This document shows positions 4-10,680 of a DNA stretch of 47,104 bases, one piece after another; within the stretch, counting starts at the first letter, position 1; every line of letters begins with the position of its first letter. Both the position numbers and the translations under genes were made by a program. Below the pieces are notes generated by a model. It did not search any database. It was not told the origin of the DNA and saw only the letters and a list, made by a program, of their open reading frames with translations. This DNA is from Planctomycetota bacterium (lineage in GTDB: Bacteria > Planctomycetota > Planctomycetia > Gemmatales > Gemmataceae): NCBI GenBank assembly GCA_016873095.1, contig VGYC01000036.1:1-47104 (forward strand), written 5' to 3'.

Positions 4-76
4 TGAAGGCGCTGGGGCTCGAACCCAGGACCTACGGATTAAAAGTCCGTTGCTCTACCGACTGAGCTACGCCTCC
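4..76 (-). tRNA. tRNA-Lys (anticodon TTT)
   Basis: Read on the minus strand the 73 nt fold into a complete cloverleaf. The acceptor arm is GGAGGCG/CGCCTTC with one G-T pair and discriminator A at position 4. The D arm is GCTC/GAGC, the anticodon arm ACGGA/TCCGT with loop CTTTTAA, and the T arm CTGGG/CCCAG with loop TTCGAGC. The anticodon TTT is at 41-43. No CCA is encoded. The 5' half (39-76) is duplicated at 10643-10680, so this gene is the integration site of the element to its right. Its present 5' half and everything upstream of it, including the promoter, are contributed by the element. Confidence 0.96.
39..76 (-). repeat. Left attachment-site repeat (tRNA-Lys 5' half)
   Basis: This 38-bp sequence is identical to 10643-10680. 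It runs from the first base of the tRNA to the last base of the anticodon loop. Identity stops on both sides: base 38 is a where 10642 is g, and the bases after 76 and after 10680 differ. Crossover in or near the anticodon loop is the natural reading. Confidence 0.93.
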
Positions 77-149
77 TAAGTTGTTTAGTTTCAAGTACTT
101 ATGTCGTTCTTCCTTTCCATTGTTTTTTCCTTACTACTACTTGAACTAC

Positions 150-173
150 TCCTAGCGACCGGATAAGCTAGGA
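150..173. promoter_or_regulatory. Inverted repeat upstream of the recombinase gene
   Basis: TCCTAGC (150-156) and GCTAGGA (167-173) form a perfect 7-bp inverted repeat with a 10-nt spacer. It lies between the divergent tRNA-Lys and recombinase genes and overlaps one of the ACTACTCC sites. It may be an operator or a recombinase arm site; no protein partner can be assigned. Confidence 0.35.
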
Positions 174-177
174 AAAT

Positions 178-208
178 GAAGCCCGTCCGTTCGTCGCGAA
201 CGGGCTTC
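178..208. terminator. Strong hairpin between tRNA-Lys and recombinase genes
   Basis: GAAGCCCGT (178-186) pairs perfectly with ACGGGCTTC (200-208). An alternative inner stem CGTTCG/CGAACG (188-193/197-202) gives a tighter hairpin. Read leftward, the stem is followed by TTCATTTTCC, so it could terminate leftward transcription and insulate the tRNA gene. Its placement inside the element's left end makes a regulatory or recombination role equally possible. Confidence 0.4.
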
Positions 209-242
209 TACAACTACTTACCCTTTGAGCAGGAGTAGTCGC

Positions 243-8921: not shown

Positions 8922-8956
8922 CAACCGGGAGACTCTTTCACGAAAGGACGATAGCA

Positions 8957-9958
8957 ATGCGCAGGACGAATCACGCCGACCTGAAATTCAACGCGCCCCT
9001 ATACCTTCGGCGCCACCTGGACCGACAGGCGCGGCAGCCGCTTTGCGTCAAGCAGCTTGCGAAGAATCGCCGCCGGGCTGGGACGGACGATGACGACGGC
9101 TTGCAAGGCAACCGCGCCGGCAGCCAGCGGCGAACGGTTGACGGTCGCGATTACATCGTTGCCCCGCTGACGTTGTTGATGGCCGACACCGTGTTGCCGG
9201 GCAGCCAGGGCGCGCTCTTCTATCCGGCTTCCGAAGTGGGGCGGGCCGTCCGTGGGTGGGAAGGCAAGCCACTCACGAACGGCCATCCGACAAGGAATGG
9301 CAAGATGCGCGGCGCCGCCGATGAAGATGCCATTGGCAGCATCACGAACGTGAAGTTTCGCAATGGCCGCTTGACCGCTGACGCGTGGTTTGACGTGGAG
9401 AAAACCCAAGCGAGCGACAGCGACCTTTTCACGAACATCTTGGAGAACTTGGAGCGCGGCGAGCGCATCGAGTTGTCAACCGGATTGTTCACGGACAACG
9501 AAGAGAAGCCGGGAAGGACAGCCGACGGCAAGACCTTCAGCGCGATAGCCCGCAACCATCGCCCCGACCACGTTGCGATTCTGGACAGCGACAAGGGCGC
9601 GTGCTCGCTTCAAGATGGCTGCGGAGTCTTTGCCCGCAATGCCCACAATTGCAAGTGCGGCAGCCATTGCGGGCGATGCGGCGGAAGCGCGAACGTCGCG
9701 ACCGATGATCCTTTCAACACGCTGCTTGCCGACCTTGACTTTCTGAACGCCAACGCCGGCCCGGATGATGATGACTGGCTTTTGCCCCTGCCGCCCGTTG
9801 CCGTTGTCAGCAATTGCAATCGCAAGCGCGCGACACGCGCGGACGATAACGACGGCGACGAAGATTGCCTGGAAGAAAACATGAAGCGGCTTTGGCCGCA
9901 CGATGATGACGATGAGGAATGCGAAGACGCGGACGACGAAGAATGCATGGGTGATTGA
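8957..9958 (+). CDS. DUF2213 prohead-protease-like protein
   Basis: A 333-aa protein. ATG 8957 has AAAGGA (8943-8948) upstream and is preferred over TTG 8918. The core (about 60-225) matches DUF2213, a phage family thought to act in capsid maturation: YIVAPLTLLMADTVLPGSQG, LFYPASEVGRAVRGWEGKPL, NGHPT (H110), IELSTGLF (S174) and DHVAILDSDKGACSLQDGCG. H110 and S174 are candidate catalytic residues by analogy with prohead proteases. Unusual extras follow the core: a Cys/His-rich stretch NAHNCKCGSHCGRCGG (228-243) and a very acidic tail ending DDDDEECEDADDEECMGD. No capsid gene is present for it to process. Confidence 0.82.
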   Translation: MRRTNHADLKFNAPLYLRRHLDRQARQPLCVKQLAKNRRRAGTDDDDGLQGNRAGSQRRTVDGRDYIVAPLTLLMADTVLPGSQGALFYPASEVGRAVRGWEGKPLTNGHPTRNGKMRGAADEDAIGSITNVKFRNGRLTADAWFDVEKTQASDSDLFTNILENLERGERIELSTGLFTDNEEKPGRTADGKTFSAIARNHRPDHVAILDSDKGACSLQDGCGVFARNAHNCKCGSHCGRCGGSANVATDDPFNTLLADLDFLNANAGPDDDDWLLPLPPVAVVSNCNRKRATRADDNDGDEDCLEENMKRLWPHDDDDEECEDADDEECMGD

Positions 9959-10072
9959 CGTTAAGAGGGGGGCGCTGACTGGAGCGCAGCGCGCGACGCA
10001 AGTCGCCGGCATCGCCGGGTTTTTACTCCTCCCGGCGGTGTCGCCCTTTTGTCTCTTTGAGGGTCAAACGAA
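9959..10072. promoter_or_regulatory. Hairpin-rich spacer after the protease-like gene
   Basis: GCCGGG (10014-10019) and CCCGGC (10031-10036) pair across an 11-nt T-rich loop. GGCG/CGCC (10034-10037/10042-10045) followed by CTTTTG forms a weaker overlapping hairpin. The two structures are mutually exclusive, which could mean attenuation before the small gene at 10073, or simply a weak terminator. Confidence 0.3.
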
Positions 10073-10291
10073 ATGGTGAAGGCGGTCCGCAAGAAACGCA
10101 AGCAGCCCGAATTTATCGTCCCCGTGCCGCCGACGCCGGAAGAAATCGCGGAGCGCTGTCTGGAGATTCAGGCGGAGTGGTCATCGGCAGAGCGCGCGAA
10201 GCGCGACCTTCGGGCGCTGGCTGAATATCGCCCGGTCAGTTTCTCGCCCGGTCGCATCGCGCTTGACATGGGAGCGCTCGGCGAATCTTAA
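10073..10291 (+). CDS. Small conserved-looking island protein
   Basis: A 72-aa protein with a basic start (MVKAVRKKRKQ) and the motif PPTPEEIAERCLEIQAEWS, a pattern I associate with short proteins on planctomycete mobile elements. No function is known to me. It is the last gene of the element before the non-coding right end. The ATG at 10073 is preceded by GAGGG about 10 nt upstream. Confidence 0.65.
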   Translation: MVKAVRKKRKQPEFIVPVPPTPEEIAERCLEIQAEWSSAERAKRDLRALAEYRPVSFSPGRIALDMGALGES

Positions 10292-10642
10292 TCGCCGAGT
10301 CAGGGCATCGCGGCTTGAGCGGCGCACCGTAACGGCCCGATGCCGCTCCCCCCCCCCCTTTCTCACCTTTCCCCTCACTTCGACTGCGGGCCGTCCTGCG
10401 CGATCCTGGCGCGATTGCGGGCCTGTTCCGGGCATAGTCCAACGTAGCAATAGACCGTTGCTCTTGCCCCTGGCAAACTGCCCTGGCTTGCCCGCGCGAC
10501 AGGAGTAGTAGGCTACTACTCTTAACGCGGATAAACGCGGTTTTTCAAGGTTTTTTGACAGTGGCTTGTCACAAGGCGAGAAGCGCATTTCGCCGCAGAA
10601 AAACAAGGGTTTTCGAGTGATATGGGATATGCTCGCGGTGGG
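10292..10642. other. Non-coding right end of the element
   Basis: No supported gene lies in these 351 nt. There is an 11-base C run at 10348-10358, which is error-prone in sequencing. A near-perfect palindrome, GAGTAGTAG-G-CTACTACTC (10503-10521), uses the same motif as the left-end repeats. The motif AACGCGG occurs twice just after it (10524-10537). With the left-end sites this may form the right recombinase-binding arm of the circular element. Confidence 0.55.
10503..10521. promoter_or_regulatory. Right-end palindrome of the GAGTAGT family
   Basis: GAGTAGTAG (10503-10511) and CTACTACTC (10513-10521) form a 9-bp perfect inverted repeat around one base. It is 121 bp from the right att copy and matches the GGAGTAGT sites near the left att copy (145-305) and the pair at 5948-5967. 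Confidence 0.5.
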
Positions 10643-10680
10643 TTAAAAGTCCGTTGCTCTACCGACTGAGCTACGCCTCC
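10643..10680 (-). repeat. Right attachment-site repeat (tRNA-Lys 5' half)
   Basis: This 38-bp sequence is identical to 39-76 and ends at the tRNA's first base. It is the left-behind 5' half of the target tRNA-Lys gene (or of an older insertion) and lacks the T arm and acceptor 3' strand, so it is not a functional tRNA gene. Confidence 0.92.

Follow-up and report, generated by a model that had tools for sequence, protein, structure and literature searches.

Contig VGYC01000036.1 of a Planctomycetota bacterium (assembly GCA_016873095.1) begins with a 10.6-kb element which we read, with a probability of about 0.7, as an integrative phage satellite belonging to a planctomycete family whose defining feature is a packaging module that lacks a shell. 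The window analysed here is this entire contig (C36 of the host assembly, 47,104 nucleotides). On our best reading, the element supplies its own terminase and a tail-less protease for maturation and would take portal, capsid and tail from a helper; its relatives suggest that parasites of this kind, loading themselves into the shells of other viruses, are widespread. As judged from sequence, this satellite-like architecture is real and repeated, and we did not find it described in the literature searched.

An integrative element without recognisable shell genes

The element extends from 36 to 10,680 and is bounded by a 41-bp direct repeat corresponding to the 5' half of tRNA-Lys(ttt) through the anticodon loop (40 of 41 bases identical, spacing 10,604). 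The host assembly comprises 8.36 Mb in 548 contigs and is 95.5% complete; because the contig starts 3 bases ahead of the tRNA gene, the left chromosomal flank is not visible. All 12 genes lie on the plus strand in unbroken frames, GC content is 0.605 against 0.631 for the remainder of the contig, and Pfam, PHROG and NCBIfam together call an integrase, an HTH_17/excisionase protein, DUF3631, a D12 adenine methylase, a large terminase (TerL) and a DUF2213 protease (Table 1). With its own integrase and delimited ends, this is a site-specific integrative element. The original prediction, a 10.6-kb element between tRNA-Lys half repeats in which no capsid, portal, tail or lysis gene can be recognised, is confirmed by the repeat, tRNA and family scans; it had given the boundaries as 39 and 10,680, of which the second stands and the first moves to 36. 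It had also named candidates for both terminase subunits. The large subunit is borne out by family matches, has a single copy in the host assembly at the threshold used, and has presumed ATPase and nuclease residues conserved in all three aligned sequences. The small subunit (TerS) is called from its position and homologues without direct Pfam support; 13 further distinct loci have such a homologue ahead of TerL (e.g. L153, 2e-46).

No capsid, portal, tail or lysis family fell below E 0.1 among the ten of 12 element proteins scanned (both 72-aa proteins were left out); a tail-fibre profile match on the TerS-like protein (0.16) was taken as chance. Three portal and three capsid hidden Markov models (HMMs) that we built locally found nothing on any window open reading frame (ORF) of at least 45 aa, and detected both capsid and portal in a related element used as positive control (L055). 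The virion gene set of the element is therefore incomplete, and it does not hold the portal, capsid, tail and lysis genes of an intact temperate prophage.

A packaging module shared among planctomycete loci

The original prediction had proposed searching planctomycete genomes for elements of like gene order and size, and this search returned elements of the same size, in partly the same order and without capsid genes. A search with DUF2213 gave 18 places in 16 of 397 genomes of the class, comprising ten whole genes, three lone fragments (G611, G725, G559) and five weak matches, one of which, on inspection, is a protease of another type (L158). Beside DUF2213 we recognised a second large terminase family, TerL2, with any match in 54 of the 397 genomes and 12 places in 11 genomes at E below 1e-100. 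At 11 of these 12 places TerL2 is adjoined by u172, a protein of about 160–190 aa that directly follows TerL in most related elements, including the window's (ATG at 8391). The recurrent neighbourhood consists of a small protein, TerL, u172 and DUF2213, plus integrase and primase.

The window's own terminase family, TerL1, is mixed, with some relatives beside capsid genes and others without. Alone, in a single-sequence pattern scan, the window TerL found no relative in genome contigs or IMG/VR. TerL matches occur in 11 of 102 genomes of the order (the window's included), two of the others being strong, in G064 (46% identity) and G051 (segments of 51% and 48%), and a three-sequence alignment found relatives in 33 of the phylum's 392 genomes (again counting the window's), at 42 loci in named genomes (titled planctomycetes or unplaced "bacterium") and at 14 in IMG/VR; phage and plasmid collections held distant relatives only (165 and 23 records, none covering 80%). 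In G064 (L022) a TerS-like gene, TerL and a u172 homologue are followed by no capsid gene, the other end of the locus being at the contig end; in G051 (L062) an HK97-type capsid gene (PF05065, 6e-22) directly follows TerL. Three TerL1 loci without a capsid by HMM (L059, L061, L102) were not counted as capsid-less, because of a weak virion-protein match in L102 (6e-4) and a weak tape-measure match in L061 (9e-4).

Counting the window, 18 loci hold the module in whole or in part (L022, L095, L120, L124, L147–L154 and L285–L289, besides the window): seven elements delimited by attachment repeats, the window's among them, and eleven undelimited planctomycete loci. The TerL slot is filled by either of the two distant families in 17 of 18 loci (not L120), by an unbroken ORF in 16 (it is frameshifted in L289), with motor and nuclease motifs conserved in alignments; u172 is present in 17 and DUF2213 in 11. 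A second u172-like protein lies between TerL and u172 in L147 and L150, and DUF2213 lies upstream of TerL on the opposite strand in L148 and L095. The portal and capsid HMMs matched none of the seven delimited elements and, over whole stretches, nothing in 17 of 18 loci, the exception being L285. Among the 25 of 29 Pfam and 25 of 45 PHROG families listed for the 65 proteins of the six delimited relatives, there is no capsid, portal or tail family; those present include TerL, protease, integrase and primase, and three of the 65 proteins are DUF3987.

The delimited elements use different targets: tRNA-Lys (window, L286), tRNA-Arg (L124, L153), tRNA-Pro (L151), tRNA-Val (L120) and, in L148, a repeat resembling a tRNA 3' half for which ARAGORN makes no call, so that six of seven attachment repeats overlap an ARAGORN tRNA. 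Repeat spacings are nevertheless similar (10,604, 12,245, 10,521, 10,430, 10,186, 10,270 and 11,688). Integrases of the relatives are of tyrosine or serine type, and three carrier genomes are single contigs (G206, G562, G665). In one of the one-contig genomes, L153 repeats the order of the window: integrase (5e-74), an unknown protein, excisionase, primase, TerS-like protein, TerL2, u172 and DUF2213. A repeat search found no clear ends in L147, L149, L150, L152 or L154 (L152 and L154 also as the longer stretches L290 and L291).

Phage relatives of u172 and the protease

The window DUF2213 protein alone found no relative in IMG/VR, and an alignment of 11 rows found the general phage family (at least 600 pattern matches, 577 confirmed, best 80 kept). 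An HMM built from element u172 sequences only has matches in ten of these best 80 loci. In all ten phage contigs u172 precedes portal, minor head protein and DUF2213. In nine of them no more than 400 nt separate it from the portal start, a presumed TerL ends no more than 1.4 kb before it in eight, and decoration and capsid genes follow DUF2213 in all eight contigs that reach that far. The phage order is thus TerL, u172, portal, minor head and DUF2213, from which it follows that the elements keep TerL, u172 and DUF2213 and are without portal, minor head, decoration and capsid. PHROG supports the portal (phrog_146, three contigs), the minor head protein (L195) and TerS (L233). Support for the presumed phage TerL is thinner: it has a Walker-A-like stretch in all four sequences compared, its PHROG match in L195 is only to phrog_5902, of unknown function, and tblastn aligns it with one record annotated as terminase large subunit (25% identity, E 3e-7). 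Four or five of the ten contigs served to build the portal, TerL and capsid HMMs for these phages. In the stretches covered, portal is seen in 63 and TerL in 38 of the 80 loci, so ten phage loci with u172 is a lower bound. Three of the TerL2 matches in IMG/VR (L159–L161) were set aside, having other neighbours and no u172.

The predicted fold of u172, of good confidence (predicted local distance difference test, pLDDT, 86), joins a small beta domain to three long helices. The phage u172 of L195 matched none of 50,697 named phage records, and Foldseek gave no match to the fold in PDB or BFVD at E 0.001 or better; comparisons with VIA reach Z 9.4, mainly over a helical hairpin (58–140), and may be chance. 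The original prediction had asked whether this protein might hide a portal or capsid fold, and neither is among the VIA rows listed, which leaves room for them. Given its position between motor and portal, the simplest guess is that u172 is a motor or portal accessory.

For the DUF2213 protein, AlphaFold gives a block of pLDDT 74–97 at residues 61–230 (whole-model mean 66.6). Its core best matches T4 gp21 (Foldseek E 1.1e-3; VIA 5jbl_C, Z 12.4, 139 residues aligned, 3.1 Å), followed by herpesvirus assemblins (up to Z 8.5), and the presumed catalytic residues H114, S178 and D208-H209 are invariant in all 11 elements with DUF2213. The element proteases have lost most of the long phage C-terminal tail: after the GAC(S/D/N) motif it spans 14–140 residues in elements (median 67, n = 11), against 109–746 in phages (median 326, n = 70 of 80; Mann-Whitney p = 1.4e-7), ten phage rows having been dropped where the ORF was cut by a contig end or the motif was not found. 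By analogy with T4- and HK97-type phages, the lost tail may have been a scaffold.

Evolutionary history of the module

The shell-less state was probably reached more than once, as indicated by the DUF2213 tree and by the window's place in the TerL1 tree. The DUF2213 tree (56 rows, including 45 of the 80 phage rows, namely all ten with u172 and every second of the others) requires at least four changes of satellite label, two of them forced by well-supported branches, and an approximately unbiased (AU) test rejects a single satellite clade (p = 0.0148), a result to be read cautiously given the long branches; because these include the window's protease, the count of origins is uncertain. In the TerL tree (57 rows, quick search, Shimodaira–Hasegawa-like approximate likelihood ratio test, SH-aLRT, only), four shell-less TerL1 rows form a clade (SH-aLRT 99).

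The single contig of G206 carries three u172 elements (L124, L147, L150). Comparing L147 with L150 gives dN/dS values near 0.34 for u172 and near 0.21 for DUF2213, no synonymous distance being computable for TerL2. The two share a 203-aa resolvase, identical in protein sequence, and a 164-aa protein at 97% identity, yet TerL, u172 and protease are only 50–55% identical, a contrast that points to module swapping.

The satellite reading and its alternatives

We propose that, when a helper phage replicates, the element would excise and copy itself. Its own terminase would select element DNA and dock on the helper portal, perhaps via u172, a role we propose because phages encode u172 between TerL and portal, and helper capsids and tails would be used for element DNA. 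The tail-free protease would enter or act on helper procapsids and mature them for the satellite, as heads possibly small enough to fit about 10–12 kb; alternatively, it would spoil helper assembly. A more specific version, held tentatively and at somewhat less than even odds, is that convergent satellites, assembled repeatedly from phage head modules, commandeer the helper procapsid with their own terminase (u172 serving as motor-to-portal adaptor) and a protease freed of its scaffold-like tail, which would leave the parasite in command of loading and maturation within a stolen shell and portal.

Several observations weigh against the satellite reading. The element is known from its genes alone, from which we infer the mechanism. 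No helper was identified: PF05065 capsids occur in three of eight carrier genomes (G023, G064, G665), not in the window's, and a phrog_146 portal in one of 15, the window's own, as a C-terminal part only. The contig concerned, G000:C97, was rejected as a helper prophage because only part of a portal is there; helpers may be infecting phages, or belong to other families. No capsid-less u172 element appeared in the IMG/VR loci examined (14 TerL, 16 TerL2 and 80 of at least 577 DUF2213). The module is also inconstant: L120 has u172 and DUF2213 with only a 65-aa TerL-like ORF (E 0.001); no DUF2213 was seen in L022, L124, L285, L286, L287 or L289 (L288 is cut by a contig end); L152 is without u172; and the window's TerS family occurs in four of 18 loci, a different small protein, TerS-like by position, preceding TerL elsewhere. 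The lone DUF2213 fragments have stops or no module around them, showing that decay occurs, and the window TerL falls outside the shell-less TerL1 clade, nearer to capsid-bearing elements, on weak branches.

The best placed of the alternatives, though unlikely, is an interference island, in which the module disturbs phage head assembly and so guards the host, u172 and the short-tailed protease (with TerL as decoy or nuclease) hitting procapsid or motor. The retention of u172 and DUF2213 without TerL in L120 would suit such an island, as would the loss of most of the protease tail and the STAND-like ATPases of related elements (weak in L055; nSTAND1 and AAA, one of 65 proteins each). It accords poorly with an unbroken TerL, motor and nuclease motifs conserved, in nearly all loci, and with integrase, excisionase and primase, which constitute a mobile core.

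That these are prophages decaying after the loss of head and tail genes we consider improbable. The packaging genes are indeed all phage-derived and ordered as a subset of the phage order, and the partial portal in the window's genome, the lone protease fragments and the frameshifted TerL of L289 are what decay would leave. However, the same subset and a similar size are retained despite different integrases, TerL families and target tRNAs, the frames of the delimited elements are uninterrupted, the module is under purifying selection in the two copies compared, and the protease probably has more than one origin. The original prediction had envisaged that related elements might all be truncations of one larger prophage; two TerL families, both integrase types, different tRNAs and the probably multiple protease origins speak against this. 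Least probable of all is a satellite that forms its own capsid but whose portal or capsid gene has diverged beyond recognition: related TerLs do stand beside HK97-type capsid genes (L062, and L055 with a portal in 13.7 kb), the L285 capsid gene adjoins an element's integrase and the protein at 1529 is a conceivable candidate, but that protein sits between integrase and excisionase, no ORF longer than 100 aa was called as a gene at the window positions where phages have portal and capsid, and the 65 proteins of relatives gave no match among the families listed.

Features of the window element and neighbouring observations

Table 1. Features of the integrative element, in window coordinates.
Feature	Coordinates	Strand	Support
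tRNA-Lys(ttt), complete; 5' half 36–76 is the left attachment repeat	4–76	-	
Right attachment repeat, tRNA-Lys 5' half, 40/41 identical	10640–10680	-	
Tyrosine integrase	225–1532	+	phrog_1 3e-27
Unknown protein, 241 aa, between integrase and excisionase	1529–2254	+	
HTH_17/excisionase-like DNA-binding protein; 87 aa from ATG 2414	2285–2677	+	
DUF3631 protein, presumed replication ATPase/helicase	2677–4038	+	2e-29
264-aa protein with CxxC motifs	4100–4894	+	no Pfam match below 0.03
D12-class adenine methyltransferase (Dam-like)	4813–5817	+	2e-20
Small terminase-like (TerS-like) protein	6058–6555	+	position and homologues
72-aa protein	6552–6770	+	homologue in L022, 31% identity, E 9e-6
Large terminase TerL	6688–8376	+	PF03354 5e-10, phrog_9 1e-33
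u172 protein, 182-aa ORF, ATG at 8391 (8391–8921)	8373–8921	+	
DUF2213 prohead-type protease, short tail	8918–9958	+	8e-8; phrog_760 2e-26
72-aa protein	10073–10291	+	homologue near TerL in TBK1r (L095), E 3e-6

Homologues of the window integrase adjoin tRNA genes in L124, L153, L121, L122 and L055. In the window (36–76), L124 (677–724), L153 (17798–17836) and L055 (102–161), the attachment core is a tRNA 5' half, through or near the anticodon loop, so that each of these four elements, all with the window's type of integrase, supplies a new 5' half. The DUF3631 protein has relatives in L121, L122, L123 and L148, with homologues of the 264-aa CxxC protein downstream of it in L121 and L148. L121 and L122 have a window-type integrase, excisionase and DUF3631 beside tRNA genes and no TerL in the parts read (L121 is cut by a contig end). 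In phmmer, the protein at 1529 matched none of six proteins occupying the same slot in other loci, nor did those six match one another.

L055 (1–13854) is a 13.7-kb element in tRNA-Gln with a capsid and a portal, resembling in architecture the capsid-forming phage-inducible chromosomal islands (cf-PICIs). Its genes are an integrase, excisionase, D5 primase, TerS-like protein, ParB-like protein, TerL, capsid, 170-aa protein, portal and an ATPase, the last weakly NB-ARC/STAND-like and conceivably defence cargo; IMG/VR contig L096 has the same layout at the same relative positions. In L285 (G684:C278, 3562–8072), the element's serine integrase lies directly against the 3' end of a cluster of protease, decoration and capsid genes, which is of the gene-transfer-agent-like type described below. 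The capsid ORF parts from its relatives some 11 residues short of their ends, which would fit insertion into a capsid gene as well as the capture of a capsid cassette. In the window's own genome, L299 (G000:C147, 362–3793) has a 423-aa TerL-like protein, a weak TerL2 match, beside a serine recombinase, and some 40 genomes of the window's family have weak TerL2 matches of this kind.

What looks like a gene-transfer-agent (GTA)-like system is found at L066, L071, L077, L080, L090, L106 and L158, in the family of G295. A TerS-like/TerL cluster lies in host surroundings, with no integrase recognised in L066, L071 or L077, and a portal-protease-decoration-capsid cluster either adjoins it or is separated from it by tens to hundreds of kb (e.g. 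G125, G206, G392, G422, G384). Across 71 genomes, 34 have the TerL (E below 1e-140), 32 the portal (E below 1e-160) and 32 both (Fisher p = 4e-18), with cut-offs placed at a visible gap after the tables had been seen; three of the 32 portal matches hold one stop. One planctomycete prophage TerL has been placed near RcGTA-like TerLs, according to the accessible part of PMC7947584.

Comparison with known systems

The original prediction had likened the element to capsid-hijacking or capsid-remodelling satellites. In gene content the resemblance stands; remodelling finds no direct support. Nothing like Sid, Psu or Delta of P4 turned up in the Pfam and PHROG scans, which used general family models. 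The prediction had missed three points: other elements share the lack of a capsid, the protease is short-tailed and of T4 gp21 type, and related TerLs also stand beside capsid genes (L055, L062). The prediction knew of no planctomycete satellites, and we likewise found none described by titles and abstracts, a coverage mostly outside subscription journals. The comparisons below draw on the accessible parts of the papers cited, which also included a review (PMC11389934) and a paper on phage-inducible chromosomal island-like elements (PMC10945586).

Phage-inducible chromosomal islands (PICIs) and Staphylococcus aureus pathogenicity islands (SaPIs) have a core of AlpA/Xis-like helix-turn-helix protein and primase. 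The window element is likewise a small integrative island; it differs in having its own TerL and prohead protease, whereas PICIs have no TerL of their own and redirect the helper's by TerS or Rpp. Some of these islands encode their own TerS, and P4, SaPIs and proteobacterial PICIs use the helper's large terminase (PMC10690885). The cf-PICIs are small integrative elements without tails that encode TerS, TerL and a protease for head maturation (PMC10690885). The window element shares TerL and the protease, has a TerS candidate called from position and homologues, and has no major capsid protein, portal or connectors. The Streptomyces satellites MulchRoom and MiniFlayer have TerS and TerL, but also carry portal, capsid and scaffold and have no primase (PMC10690885). 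Phage-inducible chromosomal minimalist islands (PICMIs) have a core of integrase, HTH_17/AlpA and DUF3987/DUF5906 primase, no capsid genes and a place next to fis, and the word terminase is absent from the main text describing them (PMC10803314); the window element shares this type of core, DUF3987 occurring among its relatives, but lies in tRNA-Lys and carries TerL, u172 and protease. The DUF2213 core shares its fold with T4 gp21 and herpesvirus assemblins and differs in its short tail, no capsid or scaffold substrate being recognised on the element.

If the satellite reading is true, the family would offer a natural case of a TerL working on a foreign portal and a way into the biology of u172, an unstudied protein encoded by some uncultivated phages as well, and would extend satellites to the Planctomycetota, where the titles and abstracts searched have none. 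It would also fill a gap between satellites that borrow the helper's large terminase and the cf-PICIs and Streptomyces satellites, which bring terminase, portal and capsid together (PMC10690885): here motor and protease would be owned and the shell stolen.

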